From: Halomonas elongata | GTDB lineage: Bacteria; Pseudomonadota; Gammaproteobacteria; Pseudomonadales; Halomonadaceae | Assembly (NCBI RefSeq): GCF_029081005.1 | Contig: NZ_JAJQTQ010000002.1 | Span: 62,001-126,000 of the forward strand | DNA length: 64,000 nucleotides | Direction of reading: 5' to 3' | In this document: positions 15,968 through 42,608 of the stretch, one piece after another | Position numbering within the stretch: position 1 is the first letter of the stretch | Layout of the letters: every line of letters starts with the position of its first letter | Translations under genes and position numbers: made by a program | Notes under the pieces: model-generated | Told to the model about the DNA's origin: nothing | The model's database searches: none | What the model saw: the letters and a program-made list of their open reading frames with translations, nothing else

Positions 15968-16044
<77 letters not shown>

Positions 16045-17603: not shown

Positions 17604-17640
17604 AGCTTGCTGTTGATGGAAACTTCTATAGTAAAAATGG

Positions 17641-18543: not shown

Positions 18544-18664
18544 ATACCACCCCCTGCGGATGTTTTACTGCACCTTGTCAACCAAATTTACATATATTGT
18601 TCCTTTCATTCAAGTGTCTTGGGGCTAGATTACGCAAACACCCACAAGAGATGGAGTTTGAAAA

Positions 18665-18895: not shown

Positions 18896-18899
18896 TCCC

Positions 18900-20520: not shown

Positions 20521-20539
20521 ATGAGCCAATGGCAGGATG

Positions 20540-20581
20540 TGCATTGTACAGGTACGCCGCATGCGGCTACTGTACAATGCA
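20540..20581. repeat. 42-bp palindrome with nested core
   Basis: Perfect 12-bp arms TGCATTGTACAG and CTGTACAATGCA enclose an inner palindrome GCCGCATGCGGC at 20556-20567. It could extrude as a cruciform or form a strong hairpin. It lies between the DUF7673-like gene and the end of the convergent restriction gene, so it could also act as a bidirectional terminator, though no T run is present. Confidence 0.7.
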
Positions 20582-20674
20582 AGCTGCTTACTCGCCCGTT
20601 GGGCTCAACGCTGTCCTGCTCTGCGAGGCTGAGCGGCTACCGCCTTACCAATACACCACCTGTCCCATACATGT

Positions 20675-23206: not shown

Positions 23207-24843
23207 TATCGCTTCCTTTTGCTGAAACGGGCTTGTAAGGCATCGGGGATTCGTGGCCAGTCGAGTGATGGTGCCTGCGCCTCGAAGCGCTCGGGCGACC
23301 AGCTATAAACTCGTCCACGGATTGGCTCGGCCTTATCCAGCCAAGCCTGTAGACGCTCGATGCTGTCTGTTTTCTGATCCGCCAAATAGGCAACCCAGCC
23401 ATCATGGGCTTCGATGGCTTGAAAACCGTAGTCCCCCCAAGGCTGAAGAGGCGCTTCATGCAGCAATTGCAGGGCATACCAAACTTCACCGTGAGCGATT
23501 TTTGTCGGCAGCCGGTGCATTGGCACTTGGCGGGTACGCAGATAGGCAAAGCTGCCACCCAATCCCTCGATATCTTCGCCCTTGGCATTGGTATAGCCGC
23601 CCATAATCCGTCGTACCCGCTCGGCGCAAACATCGCGGCACAGGTTCTTTCCTGGCGCTTCTTCGGTGGCTTCGCTATTGCTTACCAGAATAAAGCGACG
23701 TTCGCCGTTGTCTTCGGCGTTTAGCTTTGCGACAGCTTGTGCCGTTGTGCCCGATCCAGCGAAGAAGTCCAGCACGATATCGCCAGGGTTACAAGCGATT
23801 CGCAAGATGCGTTCCATCAGTTGGACGGGCTTCGGAGTAGAGAATACATCTTGCGACGTGTGGAATTTGAGCACATCCAAAAGCTGTTTTTTGGCATCCT
23901 GCGTATGACCGACCTCTTGGTAGGTCCAGAGGGTTTGCGGGACAACGCCCTGTTTCGTCTCGGAGAGAAAACGCTTTACGGCCGGAACGTTGTTGCCATC
24001 TTTGCCCCACCAGATACGTCCATCCGCATCCATTTCTTTGAGTTTTTTTTCTGAAACTCGCCAATACATTCCTGATGGAGGGGCAGGTATAACGCGGCCA
24101 GATGGACAGGTGATTGAGTAAGTACCTGAGCCATAATAATTACGCGCAGAAAGATCACCAGCTTTCCACGGGCCACGTGGATCATTATCTGGATTTTTAT
24201 AAGCTTTATTCTGGGCGGCATTCCTGGGCAAAGAGTTTGGCTGCCACTTGGAACGCTCCTTCGCATAGACCAATATGTATTCATGGTCGTCAGAAAAATG
24301 CTGGGCCGAGTTTTTGGGTGAGTAAACTTTTTGCCAGATTACATTGGCTAAAAAGTTTCCTTCCCCAAAAATCCGATCCATCAACATGCCAAGCCGAAAC
24401 AACTCGTTATCGTCGATGCTGACAAAGATAACGCCATTTTCCGCCAATAGCTCTTTCGCAAGCAATAGGCGTTGATGCATAAACTCTAGCCACAGTGAAT
24501 GGCGAAAGCGGTGTGTTTTATCGATAAAATGGTCGTTGTAAACAAAGTCCTTGTTGCCGGTGTTGTAAGGGGGATCGATGTAGATGCAACGGATTCGTCC
24601 GGCATGAGTCATGCGAAGGGCACGAAGGGCATCATAGTTATCACCTTCGATAATAAGGTTATTCCAAGGCGACTCGCCATGAGAGAGCGAGGCATCTAGG
24701 CTCAAACCGACGAAATCATCGTTGATCGCCCGATCGGCCTCTATCTCGTCACGCTCCCACACCAGTCCTAGCTGGCGTCCACGGTCGCGCTGCTCCAGCA
24801 AACGGATCAGCGTTTCGCGATCTAGCCCTTCGTACTTGCTCAT
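23206..24843 (-). CDS. mod: site-specific DNA methyltransferase (type III Mod-like)
   Basis: 545-residue beta-class amino-methyltransferase: catalytic DPPY at 90-93 comes before the S-adenosylmethionine motif FAGSGTT near 360, the order seen in type III Mod proteins. An intervening target-recognition region (about 150-330) is present. ATG at 24843 has AAGGA 5 nt upstream; a GTG six codons earlier is less likely. Methylates adenine (or cytosine) in a site that cannot be predicted and guides the Res partner. Confidence 0.88.
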   Translation of the reverse strand: MSKYEGLDRETLIRLLEQRDRGRQLGLVWERDEIEADRAINDDFVGLSLDASLSHGESPWNNLIIEGDNYDALRALRMTHAGRIRCIYIDPPYNTGNKDFVYNDHFIDKTHRFRHSLWLEFMHQRLLLAKELLAENGVIFVSIDDNELFRLGMLMDRIFGEGNFLANVIWQKVYSPKNSAQHFSDDHEYILVYAKERSKWQPNSLPRNAAQNKAYKNPDNDPRGPWKAGDLSARNYYGSGTYSITCPSGRVIPAPPSGMYWRVSEKKLKEMDADGRIWWGKDGNNVPAVKRFLSETKQGVVPQTLWTYQEVGHTQDAKKQLLDVLKFHTSQDVFSTPKPVQLMERILRIACNPGDIVLDFFAGSGTTAQAVAKLNAEDNGERRFILVSNSEATEEAPGKNLCRDVCAERVRRIMGGYTNAKGEDIEGLGGSFAYLRTRQVPMHRLPTKIAHGEVWYALQLLHEAPLQPWGDYGFQAIEAHDGWVAYLADQKTDSIERLQAWLDKAEPIRGRVYSWSPERFEAQAPSLDWPRIPDALQARFSKRKR

Positions 24844-24948
24844 CAGTTCCTTATGCTCCACTGGCGAGCACAGGTCTCCCTGCCCTCGAAGCCTCTATTA
24901 CGTTCGGCATGATACCTATCGCCATGCATGGGTGCATTCGCTAGGCTT

Positions 24949-24978
24949 TATGCTATCATTGATGTCATTGAAAGCATA
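24949..24978. promoter_or_regulatory. inverted repeat before the antitoxin gene (candidate operator)
   Basis: TATGCT at 24949-24954 and AGCATA at 24973-24978, centred just ahead of the antitoxin ATG at 24992. Ribbon-helix-helix antitoxins usually autorepress from such dyads. Confidence 0.5.
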
Positions 24979-24991
24979 TGGTGAGGCTGTC

Positions 24992-25234
24992 ATGGCATCG
25001 ATTACAATTCGTAATTTGGACGAACAGTTAAAGGCTCAGCTTCGCATGGAGGCGGCTAGGCATGGCCACTCGATGGAAGAGGAGGTTCGGATCATCCTGC
25101 GCAATGCGCTGAACCGACCTCAAACAAAGGGGTTGGGGACTCGCATACGCGAACGCTTCGCAGGGGAGGGTGGCATTGAGATCGAACTGCCGCCCAGGTG
25201 TGATAAGCCTCGTGAGCCGGGGTTCGGCTCATGA
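24992..25234 (+). CDS. FitA/VapB-type antitoxin
   Basis: 80 residues. A ribbon-helix-helix DNA-binding N-terminus (MASITIRNLDEQLKAQLRM then HGHSMEEEVRIILRNAL) of the FitA/Phd-like class, and a C-terminal tail (about 48-80) that would block the toxin active site. Its stop overlaps the toxin ATG by 4 bp. A longer frame upstream covers the divergent mod gene and was discarded. Expected to repress its own operon and neutralise the PIN toxin. Confidence 0.88.
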   Translation: MASITIRNLDEQLKAQLRMEAARHGHSMEEEVRIILRNALNRPQTKGLGTRIRERFAGEGGIEIELPPRCDKPREPGFGS

Positions 25235-25653
25235 TTGTTCTTGATACCAATGTGCTGTCAGAGCTTATGAAGCCTGTGCCTGACGCTCGGGTTGTCGACT
25301 GGCTGGACAGGCAGGATGCTATTTCCGTGACAATTTCCGCTATTACAGTCGCTGAAATTCTCTATGGCATCGAGCGCCTGCCCGACGGTAGGCGCAAACG
25401 TGGTTTCGCAGCCATAGCGGCGGCAATGTTTGAGGAAGATTTCTCTGGCCGCATACTATCGTTCGATAGCGGGGCTGCGATTCACTACGCAGAGCAGGTC
25501 GCTGCCAGCGAGAGTGCAGGAAGGCAGGTTCACATGGCCGATGCCCAAATTGCTGCTATCTGCATCCAGCATGGAGCGGTGTTGGCGACACGCAATATAA
25601 AGGATTTCGAGACGTTGAGCGTCGAGACGACCAATCCTTGGGAAATGGGCTGA
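25231..25653 (+). CDS. FitB/VapC-type PIN-domain toxin
   Basis: 140-residue PIN-domain ribonuclease. Acidic active-site residues are visible: Asp5 in VLDTNVLSELM, a Glu in TVAEILYGIERL near 43 and Asp in HMADAQIAAI near 104. Family knowledge: VapC/FitB toxins cleave tRNA or rRNA when the antitoxin is lost. Here it sits at the attR end, so it probably stabilises the element in the host. Confidence 0.9.
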   Translation: MIVLDTNVLSELMKPVPDARVVDWLDRQDAISVTISAITVAEILYGIERLPDGRRKRGFAAIAAAMFEEDFSGRILSFDSGAAIHYAEQVAASESAGRQVHMADAQIAAICIQHGAVLATRNIKDFETLSVETTNPWEMG

Positions 25654-25656
25654 TAT

Positions 25657-25677
25657 CGGTACACTGACGGTACAGTG
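25657..25677 (+). repeat. tandem GGTACA(C/G)T repeats near attR (candidate integrase arm sites)
   Basis: Two octamers GGTACACT and GGTACAGT 11 bp apart, matching the pair at 16093-16113 near attL in sequence, spacing and orientation. Confidence 0.55.
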
Positions 25678-25795
25678 GTTGGTTCGGGCGGGTTACGCTA
25701 ACTTTCGCTAAGCTGCTGATATTCCTATTCTTTAATCCTTGTTAGGTTGCGGTAGATTTCGTAGAATTTTTAGTATCTTATTGATTTAAAAGCCA

Positions 25796-25841
25796 ACTCA
25801 TAATCCCTTGGTCGGCGGTTCGAGTCCGCCTGGGCCCGCCA
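25796..25841 (+). repeat. attR (displaced tRNA 3' half)
   Basis: 46-bp copy of the tRNA 3' half, identical to attL for the first 19 bp. The T stem differs at two base pairs, and both partners changed (GCTGG/CCAGC in attL, GGCGG/CCGCC here), so the stem still pairs. The acceptor strand TGGGCCC and terminal CCA are kept, with a changed discriminator base. Confidence 0.88.
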
Positions 25842-26190
25842 TAGAACAAGCAATTACGTTTTCCCTCCTTCCTCACTTTCTGTACCTGCCATCCTGCCCA
25901 TATTCTGTCCAGCATGGGCCATGGCCTCCCGGCTTCCGAGCGCCACCAGCTTCAACAGCCCAATGTCCTGACTTTTCATCTGGTCATCGAGCTGAGCTGT
26001 CCCGTGTCCTGGGACAGGCGATTCTTTTCTTGTTACGTGCACATTGTGTCTCCACTGTCCTACATCCTATGCAGATCTGCCGGTGTTACTCTGCGACGTG
26101 CTGTATCCCACAGCACCCCCGCAGCTTGGGCGCCACGGATGGCAAATGCTGCATCCAAGGAGGAACGCGTGGCCAGGGACGGCCTCTTTG
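25842..26190. other. gap after attR with a possible gene fragment
   Basis: No intact gene. A short minus-strand frame at about 25854-25985 (MKSQDIGLLKLVALGSREAM) reads like the first residues of a small helix-turn-helix protein that is broken soon after. Otherwise nothing is seen. Confidence 0.35.
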
Positions 26191-29063: not shown

Positions 29064-29840
29064 GTGAAAATAAACCAGCTGTTGCACAAGATCCCGTATG
29101 GCGCCGTCGTGACGACCGCCTGGCTTGCGTCACACGGCGTCACCTCGGATCAGGCACGTAAGCTGGCCAGCAGTGGCTGGCTGCAGCGCGTGGGGTACGG
29201 TGCCTACTGCCAAGCGGGGGAGCCTCTTACCTGGGAGAGCGCTGTTTTCGCCTTACAGGCGAGCGACGACACGGGCTTACCACCGCTTTGGCCGGGTGGC
29301 CAGACGGCCCTGGCATTGCATGGCTTTGCCCACTATCTGCCCATGGGGGAAAGCACGACACACCTGTATGGCAATGAGGCCGTTCGGCTGCCCCGGTGGT
29401 TGAGTGATGCCGAGTGGGCAGGGCGGATGGTCCTCCACTCTGAAAAGGGCCTGCCAGTACAGCTTCCCGGTAGCTTCACTGACTACGCGCCGGATGGCAG
29501 GGCCTTCAGCTTGCAGGTATCGACCCCCGAGCGAGCGGTGTTGGAATGGATTGCCGTGACGCCGAATGCGCTGCTGTTCAACAGTGGGCTGGTCGACACC
29601 TTCGGTGGCCTCAATACGCTGCGCCCGCGCCGGCTTCAGGCATTGCTGGAGGGGTGCCGTTCGGTGAGAACCAAGCGGGCCTTCCTGGTGCTGGCTCGCC
29701 ACGCCGGGCATGCCTGGTACGGTCGTCTGGAACCACGCCGACTGGACCTCGGCAAAGGCAAGCGGCAGCTCTGCCAGGGTGGCAAGTTGGATAGGGAATA
29801 TCACGTGACGGTGCCGGAGACGTTCCTGCATGCCGATTGA
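29064..29840 (+). CDS. AbiEi-family antitoxin-like protein (no toxin partner)
   Basis: 258 residues of the AbiEi type: an N-terminal winged helix (TTAWLASHGVTSDQARKLAS, then GWLQRVGYGAYCQ) and a C-terminal domain (about 95-258, with GGQTALALHGFAHYLPMG and STPERAVLEW). In type IV systems AbiEi represses and counteracts the nucleotidyltransferase toxin AbiEii encoded right after it. Here no AbiEii gene follows; the next sequence is a minus-strand fragment. Start is GTG. It may be an orphan regulator. Confidence 0.8.
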   Translation: MKINQLLHKIPYGAVVTTAWLASHGVTSDQARKLASSGWLQRVGYGAYCQAGEPLTWESAVFALQASDDTGLPPLWPGGQTALALHGFAHYLPMGESTTHLYGNEAVRLPRWLSDAEWAGRMVLHSEKGLPVQLPGSFTDYAPDGRAFSLQVSTPERAVLEWIAVTPNALLFNSGLVDTFGGLNTLRPRRLQALLEGCRSVRTKRAFLVLARHAGHAWYGRLEPRRLDLGKGKRQLCQGGKLDREYHVTVPETFLHAD

Positions 29841-30059
29841 ATCGAGATCCATCCCCTGCTGGGCGATATGCTTTCGAAGTTTTGTTCGTTCTCTGCGAAC
29901 GATGATTGCCACATAGGTAATGACAACCGTCAGGCCGGCGCCTCCTCCCATGAATATTCCCGCGCCCCCGCTGGTTAGGGATGCCATGACAGCGAAAGCG
30001 AGAAACGCCAGAAACGGTATGATGATCAGTATCTGAAAAACGACCCATAAAGCTTGCAT
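29841..30059 (-). pseudogene. membrane protein fragment
   Basis: MQALWVVFQILIIIPFLAFL and a second hydrophobic segment (GGGAGLTVVITYVAIIV) followed by basic RRERTKLRKH: two membrane helices, then the frame runs into antisense of the AbiEi gene. Probably the remaining part of a larger membrane protein gene cut by recombination. Could also be a short real protein with an unusual C-terminus. Confidence 0.35.
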
Positions 30060-30084
30060 ACGATAGAGTGATGTCCTGTCTGTC

Positions 30085-30417
30085 TGAGCTATCTGGAGCG
30101 TTCCCGCCCAGGGGGACATAATGGCGATAGCCTTGCAGCGTGAGTGCCGTCATGCCGCCGACATGGACATCGTAGTCCATGATGTGCTGCATCGAGAGGA
30201 GGCTGGCCTTGCAGTCGATCATGTCGGTTTGTTTGGCGCCTGGCGCTGGGCGCAGGAAAACGCCGCGCGTCACACGCTCCAGCCAGCCGCGGTCCACATA
30301 TTTGCGCGCGAGGAAGCGGCTGACCTCATGTCGTTCCAGCCAACCTGAATCGACCATGAAACCAGGAGGGGCGGCTTCGAGGATACGCTTTAGCTTCCCT
30401 TCTTCATGTGTACTCAT
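30085..30417 (-). pseudogene. second AbiEi-like gene, N-terminal fragment
   Basis: About 110 residues clearly of the AbiEi type: FMVDSGWLERHEVSRFLARK, RGWLERVTRGVFLRP, then GGMTALTLQGYRHYVPLGGN. The family sequence stops there and changes into unrelated code around 30085, at the start of the membrane-protein fragment. The C-terminal domain is lost. It faces the intact AbiEi gene on the other strand, so this locus has gone through a rearrangement. Confidence 0.65.
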
Positions 30418-30581: not shown

Positions 30582-31478
30582 ATGGATATTCTCGATAAAC
30601 GGGCATTTTACCTTCATGAGGTCTGCAATTGCGGCGGGATTCGCGCTGCTTCAGAGCACCTCCATATCAACCCTTCGGTGATCAGCCGTCAGGTGCGTAG
30701 CCTGGAGCGTGAGCTCGGCATGGCGCTGCTGGAAAAGCAGGGACGCCATGTCGTCCCTACCGAAGCAGGAAAGCTGGTGGAGGACAGTTTTCTGGCTCAG
30801 CGACGGCTGAATTCGGAGTTGAGCGACACATTGTCGCGGCTCAATAATCTGCAACTTGGCAAGGTCGTGGTATCGGTTGGAGATGGCTTCGTTGATAGTT
30901 TTATCCATGATGTCATGCAGAAGGTCGCCGAACAGTATCCAGATGTTCTGATCGACATTCGTACCGGCATCTACTATCCACAAGAGCCCCATGAGATGGT
31001 AGCCAACGATGAGGTCGACATCGCGGTCACCTATGGGCCGGTATCGGACCCGCGCCTGGTAGTGCATTCCTTTGAACGTGGTCCGCTGTGTGCGCTGGTC
31101 GCACCGGGACATCCATTGGCTCACGCTCAGAGTGTCAGTATTGCCGAGTTGGCGCGTCACAAATTGATTTTCTTGCCGGACGTGTCTGGCACCCAGCGCT
31201 TTGTGAACGACGTTTTCCGTGCCGGAGGACAGTTGGTGACACCTGCATATCGTTGCAACCTGCATTCGATCTCGCGGCGTATGGCCTGTGCAGGCATCGG
31301 GGTGGCGTTCATGACGGCGGCGGCGGCCGGGAAGGAGGTGGCCGCGGGGGAGCTCGAGGCTATTCCCATCGCCCATCCCATGGCCGAGGCAAGCCAGGGA
31401 AACCTGGTGCGCAGGGCCGGCAGGCGGTTGTCCCCGGCTGCCGGCTATTTGTGGAAGGTAATGCTATCGATGCAGTGA
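30582..31478 (+). CDS. LysR-family regulator (AbgR-like by context)
   Basis: 298 residues with the LysR winged helix-turn-helix at about 17-65 (GGIRAASEHLHINPSVISRQ, RSLERELGMALLEKQGRHV) and a periplasmic-binding-protein-like effector domain. Its stop codon abuts the stop of the convergent transporter gene with no gap. In E. coli the abgABT genes for p-aminobenzoyl-glutamate use are controlled by the LysR protein AbgR, so control of the transporter and hydrolase here is likely but inferred. Confidence 0.88.
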   Translation: MDILDKRAFYLHEVCNCGGIRAASEHLHINPSVISRQVRSLERELGMALLEKQGRHVVPTEAGKLVEDSFLAQRRLNSELSDTLSRLNNLQLGKVVVSVGDGFVDSFIHDVMQKVAEQYPDVLIDIRTGIYYPQEPHEMVANDEVDIAVTYGPVSDPRLVVHSFERGPLCALVAPGHPLAHAQSVSIAELARHKLIFLPDVSGTQRFVNDVFRAGGQLVTPAYRCNLHSISRRMACAGIGVAFMTAAAAGKEVAAGELEAIPIAHPMAEASQGNLVRRAGRRLSPAAGYLWKVMLSMQ

Positions 31479-32984
31479 TCAGCTGGCCATCATGTAGATG
31501 CCAGGGCCGATCGGCCAGCCCATGCTGAGCCAGAACATCAGGAAGGCGCTCCAGGCCAGCAGGAAGGTAACAGCCATGGGCAGCATGGTGGCGATTAGCG
31601 TTCCCAGCCCCATGTCCGGCTTGTAACGCTGCATGTACACCAGTGCGACAGAGAAGTACGGACTCATGGGCGAGATGATGTTGGTACTCGAGTCGCCGAT
31701 GCGGAACATGGCGAGCACGAAGGCCGGATCGAAGTCGATCATCATGAGCATGGGGACGAACACCGGGGCCATGAGCGCCCATTGTGCCGAGCCGCTGGTC
31801 ATGAAGACGTTGAGTACCGTGCTCATGAGGATGAAGGCGAATACCAGAGGGAGTCCGGTGAAACCGGTGCTCTGCAGGATGTTCGAGCCTTCGATGGCGA
31901 TGAACTGCCCGAGCTCGGACCATTTGAAGTAGGCAATGAACTGCGAGATGGCAAAGAAGAGCACCAATGTCGGTGCCAGCTCGCTGGCGGCCTCCGACAT
32001 GTGCTGGGGGACATCTTTGCTGTTCTTGATCTTGCCAGTGGTGATTCCGTAGACCAGGCCGATCACCACAAAGTAGCCGAACATCAGCGGTACCAGTGAG
32101 CGCAGGAAGGGCGACGGAATCAGGCCACCATCCTCGTTGCGCAGTGGTGAGGCTTCCGGCAGCACCGTCAGCAGAATCAGGGCGAGATAGACCAGGGTGG
32201 CCAGCCCCACACGCTTGAGTCCGCGTTTCTCGTCAGTGGTGAGCTCGTGGTGGTCGACGGTGGTGGTGAAGTCCTTGTCCAGGGGAAGAGTACGCTGCAG
32301 ACGTGGCTCTACCACCTTGTCGATCACCAGGGTACCGGCGGTGGCCAGTACGAACACCGAGCAAGCGACGAAGTAGTAGTTGTCCACTGGCGAGATATAG
32401 GCATCGGGATCGACCAGACGCGCCGCATCGGTGGTGATGCCGGCAAACAGCGCATCGCCCACGGTGATGAACAGGCTGGCGTCGAAGCCGGCGCCCGCCG
32501 CAGCATAGGCCGCTGCGGCTCCGGCAATGGGGTGGCGGCCTACCGAGTAGTAGACCATGGCCGCCAGTGGAATAAGGATCAGATAGTTTGCATCGGAGGC
32601 GATACTGCCGCAGATGCCCGCCAGGAAGACGCAGAAGGTCAGCAGTGAAGATGGCGCTTTAGCCACACTGACTTGCATCAGTGTTGACATCAGCCCCACC
32701 TTGTCGGCGAGGCCGATGCCGAACATGACGACCAGGATGAGCCCCAGGGGAGGGAAGTTGACAAAGTTTCTGACCACACTGGTCAACATGAACTCCAGCC
32801 CCTCCGGAGAGATAAGGCTTCGGACATGGACCTCGGCTTCGGTCTGCGGGTTGACTGCCGATACGCCTAAAAAGGCCAATAGGGCGGAAAGCACTATTAC
32901 CACGGCGGCCAGAATAGAAAAAAGAATGAAAGGGTGAGGCAGTTTATTGCCCACGCGTTCGATAGAACTGAGTACGGCTTGCAT
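31479..32984 (-). CDS. abgT: AbgT-family transporter
   Basis: 501-residue inner-membrane transporter of the AbgT/MtrF family with about 11-13 hydrophobic segments. Family segments are visible: VGNKLPHPFILFSILA at the N-terminus, GICGSIASDANYLILIPLAA, AAAYAAAGAGFDASLF, and a late IGDSSTNIISPMSPYF. Members take up p-aminobenzoyl-glutamate or export antifolate sulfonamides. A hydrolase gene is 103 bp upstream in the same direction, which supports an uptake-and-hydrolysis pathway. Confidence 0.92.
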   Translation of the reverse strand: MQAVLSSIERVGNKLPHPFILFSILAAVVIVLSALLAFLGVSAVNPQTEAEVHVRSLISPEGLEFMLTSVVRNFVNFPPLGLILVVMFGIGLADKVGLMSTLMQVSVAKAPSSLLTFCVFLAGICGSIASDANYLILIPLAAMVYYSVGRHPIAGAAAAYAAAGAGFDASLFITVGDALFAGITTDAARLVDPDAYISPVDNYYFVACSVFVLATAGTLVIDKVVEPRLQRTLPLDKDFTTTVDHHELTTDEKRGLKRVGLATLVYLALILLTVLPEASPLRNEDGGLIPSPFLRSLVPLMFGYFVVIGLVYGITTGKIKNSKDVPQHMSEAASELAPTLVLFFAISQFIAYFKWSELGQFIAIEGSNILQSTGFTGLPLVFAFILMSTVLNVFMTSGSAQWALMAPVFVPMLMMIDFDPAFVLAMFRIGDSSTNIISPMSPYFSVALVYMQRYKPDMGLGTLIATMLPMAVTFLLAWSAFLMFWLSMGWPIGPGIYMMAS

Positions 32985-33087
32985 GATGATTGACCTTGTT
33001 GTGTATCACGTGGTGAGTGGAGTCAGGCAGCGTCAATCGGCATTACCTATCACTCGGTTTGTTATTTCCCGTGGATTGTTACCCCAG

Positions 33088-34245
33088 TTATTCAGGCTTC
33101 ATGAGGCCTTTGGCCAGGGCAACGAAAACGCCCCCTGCGATCGGCAGGATGTGGTCGTTGAAGTCGTAGTGTTCGTTGTGCAGATAGGCGCTGTCGCCGT
33201 TGCCAACGAAGAAGAAACATCCCGGTACTTCCTGCAGGTAGAAGGCGAAATCCTCCGCCCCCATGGTCGGCATGTAGTCCAACTGCTGAATGTCATTGCT
33301 CACTTCGCATGCGCGGGAAAGCTCCAGTACCCGTTCTGCCCAGAATACGTCGTTGACCAACGGGGGAATCTGGTGCTCATGCTCCAGGCTGAAAGTGGCC
33401 CCATGGGCGGCGCAGACACCGTTGACAAGCGCCTCCAGCTTTCCGACCAAGGCGTCACGCGAGGAGGGACGATCACTGCGGATATTGACCACGAGTTCTG
33501 CATCACCGGGTATGACGTTGGCCGCGTCACCGGCATGGAAAGCCGCCACAGTGATTACCCCTGCTTCGAGAGGAGACTTGTGTCGTCCAACCAGCCCTTG
33601 CAGCTGCTGGACGATACTGGCGCCGACGTAGATGGGATCGACGGCGAGATGGGGCATGGCGGCGTGGCCGGAACGCCCGCTGATCTTGAGCCGGAAGGTA
33701 TCGTTGCCACCCATGGCTGGGCCGGGTTTGACGAACACCTGGCCGGCGGGAAAGCCGGGGCGGTTGTGGTAGCCAAAGATGGCGGAAACGCGGGGGTTGT
33801 CCAGCACACCTTCTTCGATCATGCGTGCGGCGCCGTTGCCGCCTTCTTCCGCTGGCTGGAAGATCAGCTTCAGATGCCCGCTGAGCGAGTCTCGCTGGGC
33901 CATGATCGTTTCCGCTGCCAATAACAACGCAGCAGTGTGGCCATCATGGCCACAGGCGTGCATCAACCCGGCATTGCGAGATCCGTGGGCAAAGGTATTG
34001 GCTTCATGGATGGGCAAGGCGTCCATATCGGCCCGAAAGGCGATGACGGGACCGTCACGTCCCGTGTCGAGTTCACCCATGACGCCTGTTTGAGCGATAT
34101 TTTTCGTCACCTTGTAGCCCAACTTCTGCAGGTGTTCAGCAACGATATCGGCGGTTCGAGTTTCCTCGAACTTGAGCTCGGGATGACGATGCAGGTCCCG
34201 TCGTAGCTCGGTGATGGTTTCCAACTGTCGATCGTTGAACATCAT
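33088..34245 (-). CDS. M20 amidohydrolase (AbgA/AbgB or hippurate hydrolase type)
   Basis: About 385 residues of the M20D amidohydrolase family. Metal-site motifs are present: RADMDALPI, LMHACGHDGHTA and QPAEEGGNGA, then the dimerisation domain with SGRSGHAAMPHLAVD and the late metal ligand in MGAEDFAFYL. The start is one of two adjacent ATGs after AAGGA (34245 or 34242). First gene of a probable operon with abgT; it likely cleaves an N-acyl or aminobenzoyl amino acid taken up by that transporter. Exact substrate inferred. Confidence 0.9.
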   Translation of the reverse strand: MMFNDRQLETITELRRDLHRHPELKFEETRTADIVAEHLQKLGYKVTKNIAQTGVMGELDTGRDGPVIAFRADMDALPIHEANTFAHGSRNAGLMHACGHDGHTAALLLAAETIMAQRDSLSGHLKLIFQPAEEGGNGAARMIEEGVLDNPRVSAIFGYHNRPGFPAGQVFVKPGPAMGGNDTFRLKISGRSGHAAMPHLAVDPIYVGASIVQQLQGLVGRHKSPLEAGVITVAAFHAGDAANVIPGDAELVVNIRSDRPSSRDALVGKLEALVNGVCAAHGATFSLEHEHQIPPLVNDVFWAERVLELSRACEVSNDIQQLDYMPTMGAEDFAFYLQEVPGCFFFVGNGDSAYLHNEHYDFNDHILPIAGGVFVALAKGLMKPE

Positions 34246-34334
34246 TGTTCCTTGTCGATTCATCAAACATGTTGCTAGTCCGCTAACAGTAGGCGAATGA
34301 CCGGGGACGAAAGAGTGCGGGTAATAGTCATCTT

Positions 34335-34353
34335 TGTTGCCTTGAAGGCAACA
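34335..34353. promoter_or_regulatory. perfect palindrome before the amidohydrolase gene
   Basis: TGTTGCCTTGAAGGCAACA, 9-bp arms around one base, 90 bp upstream of the amidohydrolase ATG. Shape fits a LysR or GntR operator; which protein binds is unknown. Confidence 0.5.
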
Positions 34354-34446
34354 GTCCTTTGAAGAACCGGTTTCGGTGGAGTGCCGGGACTGGATATGGG
34401 GCCCTGAGCAAGGATCTGTGGCCGCATGCTCGCTTTTGCGACGAAG

Positions 34447-35060
34447 TCAACTGAAGCCGTGTAAGACTGACGTTGTGTCGTTGATTACGGGCTGTGATTT
34501 TCGAGAAAGTAGCTGAACGAGTTTATGACAAAGTGTGTAATGCCCCCGGGTTTCCGCACACCCTACGTGGCTAATCCCGGATGCTCTTGGGGCCACATAG
34601 TCCAGAGACTGATGTGACTGTTCTTCGTTGTGGTACCGGATTCCGCGATCGATCACGATCCTGACTTGGCCCAGCGACTCGAAGCGATGGAGCCTGATAC
34701 GCTCCTTGTGCCCGTATAGTGGCGACTGCTTGTTGTCGGACCGCAGCGCCAGAAGCTGAGGAATCCGGCCCAGGAGGCCGATAGGAGGGGAACCGTTCTT
34801 CTTGGTCTCCCGGAGCTCGGACTCATACTGCTCACGAATGTCCTTGGGACGAGTCTTGACCCCGTTCTTCATGCTGCGCTGGGCCTCATCGATCCAGCCC
34901 TCGCCTCCAGAGACAGTGAGATCGTACTGGCGAGCCACCCCAGCCGTCGTTGTCTTGCCCTTGAAGATGTCCATGACCACGGCGGTCCTTCGCTTCGCGG
35001 CCCATTGTTTATGGGATTGCCGTCGCTCATTCTCTCTTCCTGATGGCTGCACTATACCTG
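34447..35060 (-). pseudogene. IS3-family transposase remnant
   Basis: One frame joins the start of an IS3 OrfA (HKQWAAKRRTAVVMDIFKGK, VARQYDLTVS, TRPKDIREQYESELRETK) directly to the end of OrfB (LHRFESLGQVRIVIDRGIRY, NEEQSHQSLDYVAP). Most of the DDE catalytic domain is deleted and several family residues are changed, so it is dead. The natural OrfA start is also out of frame. It marks the border of the accessory stretch that holds the adenylation-reductase gene. Confidence 0.75.
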
Positions 35061-35373
35061 TGCAGCTCTGGAGGGGGCTCTTCAGGGGCGGCCTGGCCCG
35101 CTCCGCATCGATGCCTCCTGGCGCTCCTCGTAGCCCCAACGGGCAGGCGGCATACCTGATTCGAGCCCCGTATTCTCGGCCCGGGGCAGTAGTTGGATGT
35201 CGTTCTTTTAGATGGTTTTCGAATACCTATAAGCCATTCCTGGTTAATTTCATATTAATTAGAGTGTTGTTCTCTAGTCTGTGATTTTTCATTGGTTATT
35301 TGTTTGTGGGATTTGTATCCAGGCTCTAGTGCATGGCGTATAATTATTTCGATGGTTTGGTTTGGAGAAACCC
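35061..35373. other. gap turning A+T-rich
   Basis: No gene supported. The first half is G+C-rich and probably old IS flank; after about 35210 the sequence becomes clearly A+T-rich and leads into the next unknown gene. Confidence 0.45.
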
Positions 35374-35781
35374 ATGAAAAAATTAACTTTGTTTACAGGT
35401 CAGGAGCTGATGAGTATTGCTTCTGTTGTTAAGTGCAAGTTTTTCTATGTTCCCATCCCGATTTCCGTGGTGGAAGGCGGAGGTAGTACTCTCCAAGTAA
35501 ACAAAACGAGGGAAAAGGTTTTCGATAAGGACGCGATTGATACTGCTGAAAATGAAGGGTGGCCGACTTCCTTCGGAATCTGTGGAGACCGAAGCAAAGC
35601 TGGTCTAAATAAAGAGAAAGCTTCTTCAAGCTCCACTTTTTCCAGGATAAAGAAGGCTTTCGGGAAATTCAAGGGTTCCTTTTCTGGGGTTAAAGAAAGC
35701 AGTCCTGAAAAGAAAATTGAGAAATATTATATTCCAAAGGATAAAGCGGCTGGGTTTAGTCGCCCCCCTTACATAGATTGA
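35374..35781 (+). CDS. hypothetical protein, A+T-rich, lysine-rich
   Basis: 135 residues from an ATG preceded by TTTGGAG. The N-terminus is hydrophobic-basic (MKKLTLFTGQELMSIASVVK) without a convincing signal cleavage site; the middle has KCKFFYVPIPISVVEGGGST; the C-terminal half is rich in Lys and Ser. Codon use is far more A+T-rich than the chromosome, which suggests recent transfer. No family recognised and no functional partner nearby. Confidence 0.55.
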   Translation: MKKLTLFTGQELMSIASVVKCKFFYVPIPISVVEGGGSTLQVNKTREKVFDKDAIDTAENEGWPTSFGICGDRSKAGLNKEKASSSSTFSRIKKAFGKFKGSFSGVKESSPEKKIEKYYIPKDKAAGFSRPPYID

Positions 35782-36593
35782 AAATAGGGGCTTGCAGTCC
35801 TCTCTGGCTGGTACGGGGTCGCCTTGGGCGGCCCTGTGTTCGTTTATGCTCGCCAGGTACTCGCAGTATTCCTGGATTGCAGAGTTCAGAATAGAGCAGG
35901 GACACAGCACCTTATCGAATCGGTCAGGTGTTGCACCAATAATTTGCAACCAACGGCCTCGTGCGTGAGTCCGATCAACAAGCTCATTGACTCCTTGTGA
36001 ACTTCGCTTTTGGCTCACGACATCGCTGTTGCTCGCTTTATGAGCAGAAGAGGTTCCCCATTGTTCCATCCTGACGATTTTTCGACCGATTTCGACTCGT
36101 GATCCGCAAGGATGTAGAAAATGCGTTGGCCCGCCCTGGCCCTGACCATCGCTCGACGGCTTTTCAGACAGGGGATGGTTGAGGTTATACGCCCTCCTGA
36201 GAGGGACGTAATAGTGCCCATATATTAGTAGTTTGTTAACTATTTTCGGGTTCTGTTTTTTATGTCCATGATTTTTTTGATTTTATTTAATGTTTTTTCG
36301 TTGTTACAAATAAATACTTTTTTAGTGGGTGAAAGATTAGAATTTCATTATGGTTGGTCTAGGCTTGTGTGTGGACTTGCAATGGATGGAGGGGAAAGAC
36401 TTATGGCGTTACACGCCTGTTGGTAGGTTGGATCTGTGTCTTTGGCGACTATAGCGGCCAGAGCGGAGACCATGTACATAAAGCGGAAGTTCTTTCCGAA
36501 TCGCTATCTCATTCATGCTGAGTATTGAAGTATAGAAATCTCGGTGTTGTGGGAAAGCGCGTTAGATCGCTCACTAATTTCAAGGAAAGCTGC
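35782..36593. other. long gap, A+T-rich in its right half
   Basis: No convincing gene. Minus-strand frames in 35790-36221 overlap each other in two frames and look like decayed code with no recognised family. 36221-36360 is a very A+T-rich stretch. The promoter of the adenylation-reductase gene should lie in the last 150 bp. Confidence 0.45.
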
Positions 36594-39500
36594 ATGATGG
36601 CACATTACGATACCGTACTTCATTATTTTCTAAACTATGCCGAGCGTTTCCCGGAGAGGGAAGCGGTGACTGATGCAACTACCCGGCTCACGTACAGCGA
36701 ACTGGATAGGCGCAGCAGTGCCGTGGCCGCTTTTCTGCGTGCGCAGGGGATAGGCAAGGGGGACCTGGTCCCTTTGCTGTGTGATCGTACCCACCGTTAC
36801 GTGGTGGCCATTCTGGGTGTCATGAAAAGTGGCGCTGCCTATATTCCGGTGGACGTTCGTTATCCGTCGGAGCGGCAACGGCGTATCTTGACGCAAAGCG
36901 GCGCATCCTTTGCGCTGGCGGCCTGTGCCGATACTCCTGCTGATGCTCCCTTCCGGGTACATTCCATCGATGACATGACGGACAGTGATGATACGCCGGC
37001 CACCTTGCCGTCTTCCCAGGACCTGGCCTACGTCATCTTCACCTCGGGAACCACCGGCAACCCCAAGGGCGTCATGGTAGAACACCATGCCTTTGAACGG
37101 GTGGTGTCCTCGCACAACGACAACTTGGAAGTGGCTCAAGGAAGCCGCTCTACGCTGATGGCTGGCACCGGGTTCGATGTCGCCCAGCTGGAAATTGCGT
37201 CGATGTTGATGGCGGGGGGCACGTTGATCCTGCCTGACGAGGAAACGCGGCTGGACCCTGATCGGTTGCTGGCGTTCTTTGCCCGCCAAGGTCTCACCCA
37301 TGCTTTTGTGCCCACGGCTCTGGTTCCGGGCATTACGGCGCTTGCTCAGCCGCCGGAACTGGCGTTGACCCATCTCTTCACCGCCGGGGAAAAGCTGATC
37401 CCGCCAGCCACTGAACATCTGCCGTACGAGCTGGTGGATTGCTATGGACCGGCCGAGGCCACGATTTTTGCCACGCGTCACCGCGTTCCCGGTATCGAGG
37501 TGGACGAGCGGCCCTCCATCGGCTACCCCATGGCCGGTAGCGAAATCTTCTTGCTGGATGAACGACTGGCGCAGGTGCCTGATGGAGAGACGGGGGAGAT
37601 TTTCATTGGCGGTGACAACCTGGCTCGGGGGTATCTGCACAACGAGCCGCTGACACGGGAAAAATTTATCATTCACCCTCAATGGCGACAGCGCCTGTAT
37701 CGAACGGGCGACTTGGCGCGATGGCTTCCGGACGGTCGTCTCCAGTTCCTGGGACGCCTGGACGATCAGGTGAAGATTCGAGGCAATCGGGTGGAACTGG
37801 CCGAGGTGGAAGAAGCGCTCCATGCCCAGGCGGGGGTGAGCGAGGCGGTGGTGCTGGTTTCCGCAGCGGAGACCGATGGTGAAGAATTGAATCTTCTGGC
37901 CTTTATCGTGCCCGATCAGCAACAGCCCTCGACAGAGACCGAAATGCGGCGGGAGATGCTGAAAACCCTGCCGGACTACATGGCACCGTCGGCCATCTTG
38001 CGCCTCGACTCCCTGCCGCTCAACGCCAATGGTAAAACGGACAAGCAGGCGTTGCTGCAGATGTACCGGCGGTTGACAGGCAGCACCGACAATGGCGTTC
38101 GAGAACATGCATCGGAAGCGGTGTATATCAGCCAGATGGAACGCGACATTGCGGACGCCTGGGCGAGCGTACTCGGGCATCGTCGCTTCGACCGCACCGA
38201 TCGCTTTTTCGATGTCGGTGGCCATTCATTGCTGGCCGCTCGCCTGATGCAGGATGTGCGCGAACGGTTGTCCATTCAGGTCTGGATTCGCGACCTTTTC
38301 GAGCATGATACCGTTGCGTCATTGGCCTCGCTGCTGGAAGAGCGTCGTCGTGACGATCAGCCACGACCCTTGCTGGACCGCGAGCGTATCCACCCACTTC
38401 GTGAAGATGCCAGTCTGCCCGATGATCTTGTGTTCCAGCCTTGGCAGGCGACGGATTCCCTGGCGCGGCCGCGTCACATCCTGCTCACTGGCGTCACTGG
38501 CTTCGTCGGCGCCCACTTGCTGGTCGATCTGCTTGCGACCACCGACGCTTGCCTCCACTGCCCGATACGAGCCCGATCTGGATCGGATCCTTGGCGACGC
38601 CTGGATGACACCCTGGCCCGTTACGGTATGACGCTTTCCGACGCAGATCGGGAACGCATCGAGGTATATCGAGCCGACTTGTCAGATCCGCGCCTCGGGC
38701 TGACGAAGATGCATTATGACGAGCTCGCTGAGGCGGTAGACGTCATTTATCATTCTGCCAGTGCGGTCAATTTCATCCAGCCCTATTCGTACATGAAGCG
38801 TGACAACGTCCAGGGGCTGATGGAGTTGTTGCGCTTTGCTGCCGCCAAGCGCACCAAGCCTTTGATGCTATTGTCTACCATCTCCGTTTACAGCTGGGGG
38901 CACCTGCACACCCGCAAGCGCGTGATGCGCGAGGACGATGACATCGACCAGAACCTGGATGCGGTGATCACGGACATCGGCTATGTCCGAAGCAAGTGGG
39001 TCATGGAGAAAATCGCTGATCAAGCGGCTCAGCGCGGCCTGCCGCTGATGACCTTCCGTCTGGGCTATGCCACCTACCATAGTACCCGCGGGGTGTGTGC
39101 GGACTATCAGTGGTGGGGCCGCCTGGTACAAACCTGCGTGGAGCATCAGAGTATCCCGGATCTGGAAGCCCTGCGTGAGGGGCTTACCAGCGTCGACTAC
39201 ATGACCGCAGCGATCGCACACATCTCTCGAAACCCGGAAGGCCTGGATCACAAGTTCAACCTGATTCACGAGGGCGACAACAATCTGACGTTCAAGGAGT
39301 TCTTCAGTCGGCTGGAGGAGCAGTTTGGTTTCCGCTTCAAGGTGTTGCCCTATGCACAATGGAAGGCTCAGTGGGAACATGATCCCAGGGCTCCCCTTTA
39401 TCCTCTGTTGAGCCTCTTCACCGATACCATGTATGACGGCAAGTCCACGGTGGAGCTGTACCAGAACACCTACCTCTGGGATTGTCGAAATACCAAGAAC

Positions 39501-39611
39501 TTCCTCAGAGGCAGTGGTATCGAGGAGCCGGTATTTTCCCATGAGGAACTGACGAGTTACCTGTCGTACCTGGATGTGCCGATTCCCCAGGGCACATCGC
39601 ATATTGTCTAG
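36594..39611 (+). CDS. NRPS-like adenylation-carrier-thioester reductase protein (A-T-R)
   Basis: 1005 residues in one mono-module. Adenylation domain about 1-500: FTSGTTGNPKG near 150, the FD of the specificity pocket (FDVAQLE), DCYGPAEATIF, YRTGDLARWLPDG, LDDQVKIRGNRVEL and the catalytic NANGKTDKQALL. Carrier protein with the Ser to be phosphopantetheinylated in DVGGHSLLAARL near 545. Reductase domain about 625-1005: NAD(P)-binding TGVTGFVGAHLL and active-site Tyr-x3-Lys in YVRSKWVMEK near 797-801. No condensation domain. Such enzymes activate one acid and release it as an aldehyde. AAGGA 7 nt before the ATG fixes the start. Substrate unknown; the pocket Asp suggests an amino acid. Confidence 0.93.
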   Translation: MMAHYDTVLHYFLNYAERFPEREAVTDATTRLTYSELDRRSSAVAAFLRAQGIGKGDLVPLLCDRTHRYVVAILGVMKSGAAYIPVDVRYPSERQRRILTQSGASFALAACADTPADAPFRVHSIDDMTDSDDTPATLPSSQDLAYVIFTSGTTGNPKGVMVEHHAFERVVSSHNDNLEVAQGSRSTLMAGTGFDVAQLEIASMLMAGGTLILPDEETRLDPDRLLAFFARQGLTHAFVPTALVPGITALAQPPELALTHLFTAGEKLIPPATEHLPYELVDCYGPAEATIFATRHRVPGIEVDERPSIGYPMAGSEIFLLDERLAQVPDGETGEIFIGGDNLARGYLHNEPLTREKFIIHPQWRQRLYRTGDLARWLPDGRLQFLGRLDDQVKIRGNRVELAEVEEALHAQAGVSEAVVLVSAAETDGEELNLLAFIVPDQQQPSTETEMRREMLKTLPDYMAPSAILRLDSLPLNANGKTDKQALLQMYRRLTGSTDNGVREHASEAVYISQMERDIADAWASVLGHRRFDRTDRFFDVGGHSLLAARLMQDVRERLSIQVWIRDLFEHDTVASLASLLEERRRDDQPRPLLDRERIHPLREDASLPDDLVFQPWQATDSLARPRHILLTGVTGFVGAHLLVDLLATTDACLHCPIRARSGSDPWRRLDDTLARYGMTLSDADRERIEVYRADLSDPRLGLTKMHYDELAEAVDVIYHSASAVNFIQPYSYMKRDNVQGLMELLRFAAAKRTKPLMLLSTISVYSWGHLHTRKRVMREDDDIDQNLDAVITDIGYVRSKWVMEKIADQAAQRGLPLMTFRLGYATYHSTRGVCADYQWWGRLVQTCVEHQSIPDLEALREGLTSVDYMTAAIAHISRNPEGLDHKFNLIHEGDNNLTFKEFFSRLEEQFGFRFKVLPYAQWKAQWEHDPRAPLYPLLSLFTDTMYDGKSTVELYQNTYLWDCRNTKNFLRGSGIEEPVFSHEELTSYLSYLDVPIPQGTSHIV

Positions 39612-39620
39612 CCGTGACAG

Positions 39621-39721
39621 GGTGTCCATGGTCGAGTTGCGTTCGCTTTTCGGTCACCGTTTGCGATTTTGGATGGGCGAGGGGCGGATGGTGATGTCGC
39701 ACCACCTTGACCATGGACACC
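39621..39721. repeat. 13-bp inverted repeats between convergent genes
   Basis: GGTGTCCATGGTC at 39621-39633 and its exact complement at 39709-39721, 75 bp apart, in the gap between the A-T-R gene and the convergent PPTase gene. May work as a long-armed terminator; could also be the ends of a lost small element. Confidence 0.55.
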
Positions 39722-39760
39722 TCCCCGGATCCGGTTGTGAAACTTGCCGGAGTGCCCGCG

Positions 39761-40420
39761 TCAGGTGGGCCTCCTTTTCAGCACGCATAACGATAGGCAC
39801 ATACTCGACCCGGTCCATTGCTGGACGGGCAGTATGGTGCCTTTGGCAAAGGGAGGTACGGTGTGATTAAAGCACAGGCCATCAGGCGTGACTTTTAGCG
39901 TATCGAAATCGATAAACGTTTGGCTAAGCGGATACTGTGCCTTGTAGGCGGCTTCCTTCATTGAAAATATCTGCAGGGCTGCCAGGCCCGGAGGGCTATC
40001 AATACAAGCGAGTTCCTCGGGGTCGGTAATGTAGGGGGGAAGCTTGCTTTCAAGGGGGGCCAGGTTTTCGACATCGATGCCGATGGCCTGCACATGCTGT
40101 GACAGGGCAGCGACCCCTATGCAGACATCGGCCGTATGGGAGAGGCTACCGATGGTTCCTGCCGGCCAGATCGGTGCACGGTTTTGATCCATCGGGATCA
40201 CCCCGTGAGGAAAACCGAGCTTTTTCAGAACAGCGCGTGCGGCGGAGCGACCCGCCGCGAATTCCAGCCGTCGTCTTGTGTTCGCGCCAACGATGGCGGC
40301 TTCTTCGGTCGGGTAAAGCGAGAGATGTTTTTCTTTAGGGTCGCGGGTGGCATGGACCACGTCTTCCGGCCAGTCCCCCCGGCTTCCTGCAATCAAGCGG
40401 TCAAGTGACGCTACATCCAT
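39761..40420 (-). CDS. 4'-phosphopantetheinyl transferase (EntD/Sfp type)
   Basis: 219 residues of the EntD class. It attaches phosphopantetheine from CoA to a carrier-protein Ser. Motifs present: GRSAAR at 57-62, the SLSHT segment at 92-96, GIDVE with Asp116 and Glu118 for magnesium, and FSMKEAAYK with Glu156 and Lys160. It is convergent with the A-T-R gene 149 bp away, so it most likely activates that carrier domain. The siderophore genes in this window are NRPS-independent and would not need it. Confidence 0.92.
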   Translation of the reverse strand: MDVASLDRLIAGSRGDWPEDVVHATRDPKEKHLSLYPTEEAAIVGANTRRRLEFAAGRSAARAVLKKLGFPHGVIPMDQNRAPIWPAGTIGSLSHTADVCIGVAALSQHVQAIGIDVENLAPLESKLPPYITDPEELACIDSPPGLAALQIFSMKEAAYKAQYPLSQTFIDFDTLKVTPDGLCFNHTVPPFAKGTILPVQQWTGSSMCLSLCVLKRRPT

Positions 40421-40610
40421 GTAGATCTTCCTTCTTCTGCTTTAGCCCCTGTGCGTTGATCCTGCTTGATATGGGGGGATGTGGAAAGGCTGGATGCAGC
40501 CGAAGAGGATTCGGCTGCAGTTAGGCGAGCTTTCGACCGGGCTGGCGCACCAGCACCGCGCACAAATTTGCCAGGAGCGAATCTGAACCGTCTTTAAAGG
40601 GCCGGCAGGG

Positions 40611-40632
40611 TAGCCGCCATGGATGGCGGCTA
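40611..40632. repeat. perfect palindrome beyond the chemoreceptor gene
   Basis: TAGCCGCCAT and its complement with a 2-bp centre, 84 bp after the chemoreceptor stop. Too tight a loop for a good hairpin; could be an operator for the divergent side or part of a terminator. Confidence 0.4.
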
Positions 40633-40715
40633 TAGCGACGCGATTGGCATGCGCAGGTATTTAAGCAGCGCTTCCTTAAAGGCAGTGTTTCCCTAACCTT
40701 TGCGTTCGACTGCCA

Positions 40716-42608
40716 TCACGTACTGTGCTGCACGACGTGTGCTGGCGACGCCTGCCGGTCGTCGTTGAGCTTGAAGCTGCCGACCAGTTCCGCCAGGCGG
40801 TCGGCCTGTTCGCGCAGCTGCTCGGCGGCGGAGGTGGATTCTTCCGCCAGGGCGGCGTTCTGCTGGGTCATGCGATCGAGCTCGGCGACGGCGATGTTGA
40901 CCTGGCCGATGCCGTCGCTCTGTTCGGTGGTGGCGTGGCTGATTTCCCCGAGCATGCCGGCGACGCGGTTCACCACCTCGACGAGTTCGTGCATGGCGCT
41001 GCCGGCGTCGCGCACCAGCCGGGTGCCGCCCTGGACCTTCTCGCCGGAGGCCTCGATCAGGCCGCGAATGTCCCGCGAGGCCTCGGCGCTGCGGGTGGCC
41101 AGCTGGCGTACCTCATTGGCCACCACGGCGAAGCCCTTGCCGCTCTCGCCGGCGCGGGCGGCTTCCACCGAGGCGTTGAGCGCCAGCAGGTTGGTCTGGA
41201 AGGCGATGTCGTCCATGACCTTGATGATGTTGCCGATGCGCTCGGAGGCCTGCTGGATGTCGCCCATCGTGGTGACCACGTCGGTGACGGTGTCGCCGGT
41301 GCCCTGAGCCAGCCTGGCGGCGGACTGCGAGAGGTTGTTGGCCTCGAGGGAGGACGCCGAGGTGTTTTCCACCGTGCCGGTGATCTGTTCCATGGAGGCC
41401 GAGGTTTGCTGCAGGCTGGAGGCCGCCTGGTCGGTGCGCCGCGACATGTCCTGGCCGCCGCTGGCGATTTCCTGGGCGGCGTGGCGAACGGCGTCGCTGC
41501 TGCGCCTGACGTGGGCGAGCACGTCGTGCATCTTGTCGGCGAAGGCGTTGAACTGGATGGCGAGTTCGCTGGCCTCGTCCTTGCCCTGGACGGGCAGCCT
41601 CAGGGTCAGGTCGCCATCGCCGTCGGCGATCTCGCCCATGGCCTCGGCGGTGCGCCGTATCGGGCGGAACAGCGCGCGCTGCAGTAGTGCCAGCACCACC
41701 AGGCTCGCCAGCAGGATCGCGGCCACCAGCAGCATGACCAGCAGCACCGCGCGATTGAGATCGGCAAACAATTCGCTGCGTGGTATCTGGGCGAAGGCGA
41801 CCCAGTCGGTGCCGGGCACTTCGATGGCGGCGACCAGCTGCTCGGCGCCGTCCTGGTCGGTGAGGGTGGTGTAGCGATAGCCGTCGCCTGCCAGCAGTTC
41901 GTCGGCCTGGGTCTCCCAGCCGGGCAGCTCGGCGATCGGCTGGCCGGCCATGGCGGCGCCCTCGGGGTGCACGCTGATGGTGCCGTCCTGGCTTGCCAGG
42001 AACACCGAGCCGGTGTCGCCGAGCTGGTAGGTGCTGATCGTCTCCGCCATGGCGTCCAGGGTATAGCCGACCCCGGCGATACCGACGCGCTCGCCGTCGA
42101 TCTCGACCACGTGGTTGATGAAGACCTTCAGCTCGCCGCCCTCGGAATCGACGTCCAGGGTGTACTCGGGCGCGTCGGCGTCGTCGACCACGTCGTAGAA
42201 CCAGGCATCTTCTTCGCGGTCCAGCGTCCGCTCGACGCCTGCCTCCGTGTAGTAGTGGCCGCTGAGGGCCGAGACGAAGAACACGGTATTGGCCCCGGTG
42301 CGTTGCTGGAGGCGGTCCAGGTAGGTCACGGCGCGCTCGCTGTCTGCTTGTGTCTCTCCCCGGCGAATCCAGTCCTGCAGGTAGCCGTTGTTGGCCAGGT
42401 CCTGGGCGGTGGTGATTGGTCCGGTCAGGGTGGCCGTGATGTCGTTGCTGATGCTCTCGAGCGTGGTCGGCAGTTCGGCGTCGGTGACCCGGTCGGTGAT
42501 CAGCTCGCTGAACAGCCGATACTGGATGGCCGTGGCCCCGCCGACGATCAGGACCATGCAGAGGCTGATGCTGATCATCAGCTTTTGGGCAATGGTGAGA
42601 TGCTTCAC
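40716..42608 (-). CDS. methyl-accepting chemotaxis protein with Cache sensor
   Basis: 630 residues. Membrane segment about 10-30, a periplasmic Cache-type sensor (about 35-285, with [21 protein letters not shown] and [20 protein letters not shown]), second membrane segment about 290-315, HAMP domain, then a cytoplasmic signalling domain with the CheA/CheW tip ([35 protein letters not shown]). The GTG start is chosen because GGGGGAAAG lies just upstream and gives the usual [10 protein letters not shown] beginning; an ATG at 42644 is the alternative. Ligand unknown, perhaps an amino or organic acid. Confidence 0.92.

Follow-up and report, generated by a model that had tools for sequence, protein, structure and literature searches.

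The subject of this study is a convergent gene pair in a 64,000-nt stretch of Halomonas elongata DNA (hereafter the window, meaning the whole stretch), which lies on contig C93 of a 4.18-Mb genome whose closest named relatives are Halomonadaceae. The first gene (36594-39611 including the stop codon, coding part 36594-39608, + strand) is an open frame of 1005 residues that unites adenylation (A), thiolation or carrier (T) and reductase (R) domains in one protein, hereafter the ATR, from which a condensation domain is absent. The second (39761-40420, - strand) encodes a 219-residue phosphopantetheinyl transferase (PPTase) of the Sfp/EntD type, and the 3' ends of the two genes face each other across 149 nt. 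In their order, and all on the + strand, the parts of the ATR are the N-terminal (36636-37637, residues 15-348, whose pocket code we read to be DVLAFACIFK) and C-terminal (37803-38036, residues 404-481) sections of the A domain, the T domain (38145-38336, residues 518-581) and the thioester reductase domain (38484-39572, residues 631 to approximately 993).

Domain architecture of the ATR-PPTase pair

Each domain of the ATR was recognized by its Pfam profile (E-values of 4.1e-73 for AMP-binding, 7.8e-10 for AMP-binding_C, 2.3e-13 for PP-binding and 1.4e-54 for NAD_binding_4), and the protein passed the NCBIfam cut-offs for amino acid adenylation (TIGR01733, 368 bits against 317) and thioester reductase (TIGR01746, 345 bits against 213). 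Among 15 aligned ATR members, the glycine-rich A motif, Lys481 at the end of the A domain, the phosphopantetheine-bearing Ser545 (GGHS), the GxxGxxG stretch at 633-639 and the reductase YxxxK at 797-801 (Tyr797/Lys801) are all invariant; we take Lys481 to belong to the A10 motif, and the other ATR motif names are presumed in the same way. An AlphaFold2 model built from an alignment of 12 sequences reached a mean predicted local distance difference score (pLDDT) of 80.4 and a predicted template-modelling score (pTM) of 0.50, and its top Foldseek match, the LgrA initiation module, gives the fold and no substrate.

The partner protein matched 4PPT_N (8.5e-21) and ACPS (1.6e-11), each above the gathering score, and contains the sequences GIDVE and FSMKEAAYK, which we take to be PPTase motifs. 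It is EntD-like and not EntD itself, scoring 54.4 bits on NF007604 against a cut-off of 169. The first-pass annotation of this locus, made from the letters alone, had described a stand-alone A-T-R protein facing its own PPTase, and the Pfam and NCBIfam domains, together with the convergent 3' ends, bear this description out.

The two genes travel together in the Halomonadaceae

The same two genes, always convergent, occur in five Halomonadaceae genomes, including that of the window. We compared the window with Halomonadaceae H. caseinilytica (L031), V. zhaodongensis (L032) and H. organivorans (L033) and with the genome G074, whose ATR and PPTase are 81-84% and 62-68% identical, respectively, to those of the window. 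In 4/4 comparisons, DNA similarity begins at approximately 36563-36682, no more than about 90 nt from where the ATR begins, and runs to approximately 40412-40423, where the PPTase begins, with a gap between the genes. Flanking DNA is common to L031 and G074 only, so that the five genomes present four settings, and no convincing conserved upstream block was found across the five. Because DNA similarity is limited to both genes in four settings, we regard the pair as a real unit, and since four further Halomonadaceae genomes carry both genes arranged alike, their association is more than chance. Both genes are under purifying selection: in three comparisons per gene, the ratio of nonsynonymous to synonymous substitution (dN/dS) was 0.09-0.10 in the ATR and 0.19-0.28 in the PPTase, with dS close to saturation. 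The pair is real, and it is probably a working minimal nonribosomal peptide synthetase (NRPS) cassette.

The five cassette PPTases also form one group of their own, with a Shimodaira-Hasegawa-like approximate likelihood ratio (SH-aLRT) support of 99 in a quick tree that carried long-branch warnings. Against 20 further PPTases of the family, hand-picked from the 80 matches that remain once G000 and G074 are set aside, they show 30-37% identity across 131-196 aligned residues. The profile PF17837 (4PPT_N) was detected in 82/201 family genomes (81 above cut-off) and in 13 congeners, G000 and G074 among them, where 49 congeners were listed, apparently from the same draw. The cassette would thus bring its own PPTase because most of the sampled congeners are without one of the Sfp type. 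Within four of the five cassette genomes (G000, G074, G938 and G939), the ACPS profile matched one frame of 128-141 residues, called AcpS from its size alone, and the cassette PPTase, and a search with this profile found no second Sfp-type PPTase there.

To consider which carriers the PPTase might serve, we listed PP-binding matches in these genomes. G000, G938 and G939 have three each, namely a small carrier (85 or 122 residues), a frame of 2480-2589 residues and the ATR; those of G000 are an 85-residue frame, a 2492-residue frame (C159:23030) and the ATR. PP-binding frames of 2496-2597 residues also occur in 4/11 congeners where PF17837 was not found, and the carrier protein of approximately 2,500 residues, if it is the same one, would therefore need no Sfp-type PPTase.

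Related ATRs form a scattered clade of mostly solitary genes

Close full-length ATRs are rare in the family, being found in 2/201 genomes; searches of the order (1/390 genomes at 1e-150) and of the class (1/369 at 1e-180) each returned the window's own genome. Relatives nevertheless occur in several other groups, and the idea of a system peculiar to this group therefore stands as regards rarity in the family and falls as regards exclusivity. Among genome contigs we found 12 relatives; 11 are close to full length, with identities of 47-84%. Plasmid records included 82 that cover at least 80% of the ATR query, three of them at approximately 50% identity (two from Burkholderia and one P. aeruginosa plasmid) and the next at 33.5%; a megablast of 36000-40600 against the plasmid collection gave zero matches. 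Clade members were present in 3/149 genomes around Providencia (out of 5 matches), 2/149 around Lysobacter and 5/149 around Pseudomonas, the last accompanied by one sister at 38% and one interrupted copy, with each query's own genome included in these counts. A TAG is present in one of the five Pseudomonas copies.

In a quick tree of 27 rows, 23 ATRs fell into one clade (SH-aLRT 99), the four outside rows being long branches and the interrupted copy of G1276 being excluded from both the tree and the pocket code table. The clade spans Proteobacteria and Actinobacteria, its members are mostly solitary genes, and its branching contradicts taxonomy, with the Nocardia and Amycolatopsis ATRs joining the plasmid copy of P. 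aeruginosa (support 96) within a set that contains Pseudomonas (100).

We compared the neighbourhoods of 17 loci by all-against-all blastp at 1e-10 and found no shared gene neighbourhood. Outside the pair there were sporadic matches of 26-51% identity, among them ABC-ATPase-like genes at varying distance in four loci and a LysR-containing gene pair in L036 and L043; apart from these, L031 and L043 have a flank in common. Neither this comparison, nor Pfam scans of the 20 non-Halomonadaceae proteins among 30 scanned neighbours, nor the 16 annotated features of the P. aeruginosa plasmid copy revealed a PPTase-like neighbour outside the Halomonadaceae, where L034-L036 have short flanks and the Burkholderia records are unannotated; no conserved co-enzyme was seen beside clade members in the neighbours examined.

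Several individual copies are of separate interest. The P. aeruginosa plasmid ATR (L030, 8992-12746) has small regulators before it and a short-chain dehydrogenase after it. Interrupted ATR copies occur in G1339 and G1276 (L074, L076 and L077), one with an internal TAG and one split over two frames. Two free-standing ATRs lie outside the clade, L075 (G1340; 1021 residues) and L067 (G1062; 1016 residues), with the codes DAMMGGAIAK and DAFMLGVVFK; they are probably additional kinds of ATR that act on different substrates.

A near-uniform adenylation pocket

The ten pocket positions are numbered as we presume them from GrsA, with motif anchors seen in the alignment to LgrA. Asp235 and Lys517 are retained in 23/23 clade members, in agreement with the earlier statement that the A domain keeps the Asp for an amino group. 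The code DVWAFAYIFK is exact in 6/23 members and present as one- to two-letter variants with W239 in 9/23, while L239, the Halomonadaceae form to which the window's DVLAFACIFK belongs, occurs in 5/23, and the Pseudomonas form DLA(A/G)YCCIFK in 3/23. At positions 239 and 322, W is combined with Y or F in 15/23, and the remaining members have L/C (4), L/Y (1) or A/C (3), so that the bulky pair has been swapped for smaller residues in two lineages.

No acidic residue other than Asp235 was found at any code position in 23/23 members. Since the code is without a second acidic residue, Lys, Orn and Arg are disfavoured as substrates, and cyclisation of the product onto a side-chain amine of the Lys or Orn kind, which the first-pass annotation had raised, appears unlikely. 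We suggest, with low confidence, that the substrate is a hydrophobic, probably aliphatic alpha-amino acid and, with equally low confidence, that the pocket form of the window leaves space for a larger side chain. Six code strings had no match in the open-licence literature searched, outside which most subscription papers fall, and in the same literature we recognized no description of this clade, its code or a substrate.

Genomic surroundings of the pair

The pair is located in a variable region of low G+C content whose left edge is a tRNA-Met gene (15968-16044, + strand). The G+C fraction falls to 0.485 at 35001-37000 and is 0.55-0.60 across the pair, compared with approximately 0.65 outside the variable region. 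The earlier description of an A+T-rich patch holds, and the reading of the pair as acquired DNA is supported. The pair had also been called bordered by insertion sequences (IS). This description is weak and has support on the left side only, where one degenerate IS3-like transposase remnant (34447-35139, - strand) remains below the Pfam cut-offs (rve_3, 21.1 against 26.5 bits; DUF1153, 19.5 against 23.5); on the right, the single neighbour scanned is a chemotaxis receptor. Between the remnant and the ATR, an A+T-rich stretch holds a 139-residue open frame (35362-35781) without a Pfam match.

Farther to the left, a LysR regulator, an AbgT transporter and an M20 peptidase stand in a row (30582-34266), resembling an operon for uptake and hydrolysis of amidated amino acids. 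As the first-pass annotation had it, no biosynthetic gene other than the ATR and PPTase was found among the scanned neighbours. Beyond this group is decayed code (29277-30417), in which an AbiEi-type antitoxin N-terminus and a fragment resembling the major facilitator superfamily are present as broken, overlapping frames.

A 9.8-kb integrative element occupies 15968-25846, with a phage-type integrase adjoining the tRNA-Met and a cargo of an N6/N4 DNA methylase, a ResIII-type helicase and a PIN-domain gene, and is closed by a 51-nt repeat of the tRNA end (86%) at 25796-25846. The ATR-PPTase pair lies outside this element, past its repeat, and we rejected an attachment site directly flanking the pair, as the sole tRNA-end repeat bounds the different, 9.8-kb element. 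In two congeners, G084 and G1394, the right flank is 88-90% identical to that of the window, the matching block lying 9.9 and 8.2 kb, respectively, from a tRNA-Met end with other DNA intervening; neither the pair nor the chemotaxis receptor can be traced in the 19.9- and 19.4-kb stretches taken from them. No RNA family reached its gathering score in 34000-42000, and scans for promoter-like and terminator-like sequences were uninformative (2 terminators found, against 4.1 in shuffles).

A model for the activity of the pair

We favour, with moderate confidence, a model in which the pair is a mobile, self-sufficient two-gene cassette whose PPTase-activated ATR, a minimal NRPS of the same kind as Xenorhabdus ATRed, makes from one hydrophobic alpha-amino acid an alpha-amino aldehyde that ends as a pyrazine or an amino alcohol. 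The PPTase would load phosphopantetheine onto Ser545, the A domain would activate one alpha-amino acid with ATP and transfer it to the carrier arm, and the R domain, using NAD(P)H, would release the alpha-amino aldehyde, as the domain content and intact motifs suggest. Because the gene pair encodes no peptide-bond former, the aldehyde would either condense with itself or be reduced. In the first case, a dihydropyrazine would form and be oxidised to a symmetrical pyrazine, as for ATRed of X. indica in the accessible part of its report (PMC7586950); alternatively, the aldehyde would be reduced further to an amino alcohol. Reduction of one amino acid to an amino aldehyde, as first proposed for this protein, thus appears probable from its sequence.

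Several observations weigh against this model. G937 has three ACPS matches and a second PPTase, together with five PP-binding matches that include a 1388-residue frame, which speaks against an exclusive pairing of ATR and PPTase. G074 has seven PP-binding matches; one of these, a 977-residue frame at a distance of approximately 22 kb, and a 1491-residue adenylation frame, both within approximately 22-33 kb of its ATR, may be further clients of its PPTase. The interrupted copies in 2/149 Pseudomonas-type genomes indicate that the function can be lost. Finally, given the kinship of the R domain to MxaA, the pathway may end in an amino alcohol.

This last point leads to the reading in which the R domain performs two successive reductions and the product is a free amino alcohol, without a pyrazine, which we consider somewhat unlikely. 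The nearest solved R domains are those of MxaA (2.9e-52), which we take to be a four-electron, alcohol-forming reductase, and of a type I polyketide synthase (3.7e-49), both far closer than carboxylic acid reductase (1.6e-20) or AusA (8.1e-9), and the top whole-protein NCBIfam match is MxcG; MxaA and MxcG are reportedly capable of alcohol formation. Work on two- and four-electron reduction in myxochelin biosynthesis is cited in the accessible text of PMC11659414. Kinship of sequences cannot, however, decide between the two modes, and the solitary bacterial ATRed of X. indica releases the aldehyde, as far as the accessible account goes (PMC7586950). Assignment of the ATR to either synthetase family was rejected on the cut-offs, with 511.2 bits against 2300 for myxochelin synthetase MxcG (NF038078; profile positions 457-1431 of 1442) and 384.8 against 2500 for aureusimine synthetase AusA (NF047350).

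The ATR could also be a partner in a dispersed pathway, its aminoacyl thioester or aldehyde feeding an unlinked enzyme, as solitary genes can do; the dehydrogenase that follows the P. aeruginosa plasmid ATR would fit such an arrangement. We find this doubtful, as the neighbours vary from locus to locus, the common unit in Halomonadaceae is two genes, and G000 has no NRPS-type carrier frame besides the ATR and the 2492-residue frame. That the pair is a decaying remnant without present function is suggested by its variable region with broken genes and by the interrupted copies in two other genomes, yet the intact frame and motifs and an ATR dN/dS of approximately 0.1 make this very improbable. 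We give hardly any credence to a carboxylic acid or L-aminoadipate reductase of primary-metabolic or detoxifying function, the known enzymes that the first-pass annotation had set against its own proposal: these share the A-T-R order, but the ATR widely misses their cut-offs (168.4 bits against 1300 for NF041592; 385.9 against 1030 for TIGR03443), passes that for amino acid adenylation and keeps Asp235.

What was an isolated oddity thereby becomes a defined, testable family: solitary ATRs, found here and there among Proteobacteria and Actinobacteria, whose pocket code is nearly uniform. The Halomonadaceae cassette is compact, has its own activator and should function even where the host lacks an Sfp-type PPTase, and both genes in E. 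coli should suffice to show the product. A bolder extension, tentative and on balance improbable, is that the entire clade consists of single-enzyme makers of one conserved small molecule, a pyrazine or amino alcohol and perhaps a shared volatile or signal. In this view gene transfer carried the enzyme from phylum to phylum, and in the Halomonadaceae it became a self-activating two-gene mobile cassette. If so, two independent substrate shifts would be marked by the loss of the bulky W239/Y322, one in the Halomonadaceae, where L/C prevails, and one in a Pseudomonas group with A/C.

Comparison with known systems

The chemistry proposed here is of a known kind; the new elements are the clade and its pocket, and a PPTase that is mobile together with the ATR. 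MxcG matches the ATR across A, T and R, but the match begins at profile position 457, the N-terminal part missing from the ATR being presumably the condensation domain. For PvfC, which the source cited next names through the Pvf pathway, the domain order is our assumption. PvfC of Pseudomonas and HamD of Burkholderia H111 are terminal-reductase NRPSs that yield (dihydro)pyrazine N-oxides or valdiazen, according to the accessible text of PMC11659414. By description they resemble the ATR in the terminal reductase, whereas they work in clusters with an N-oxygenase; no such enzyme (PvfB/HamC) was found in the 30 Pfam-scanned neighbours or the 16 plasmid-copy features, the search being confined to these and not extended to whole genomes.

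Closer in organization is the ATRed of Xenorhabdus indica (xind01729), described in the accessible part of PMC7586950, which also catalogues earlier A-T-R enzymes, as a solitary, monomodular A-T-R protein that acts alone and, in E. coli, makes a Phe-derived pyrazine by way of the aldehyde. On this description it is like the window's ATR, but its A domain uses Phe, and no linked PPTase is reported in that part of the source. The small NRPS-like A-T-R enzymes of Aspergillus, likened to the ATR by description and fungal, make pyrazinones by themselves, as stated in the accessible portion of PMC10512218. In the granaticin cluster, too, an Sfp-type PPTase gene lies next to that of its own client enzyme (PMC9813960, accessible text); there the PPTase serves a whole polyketide cluster, whereas that of the cassette adjoins a single client gene.

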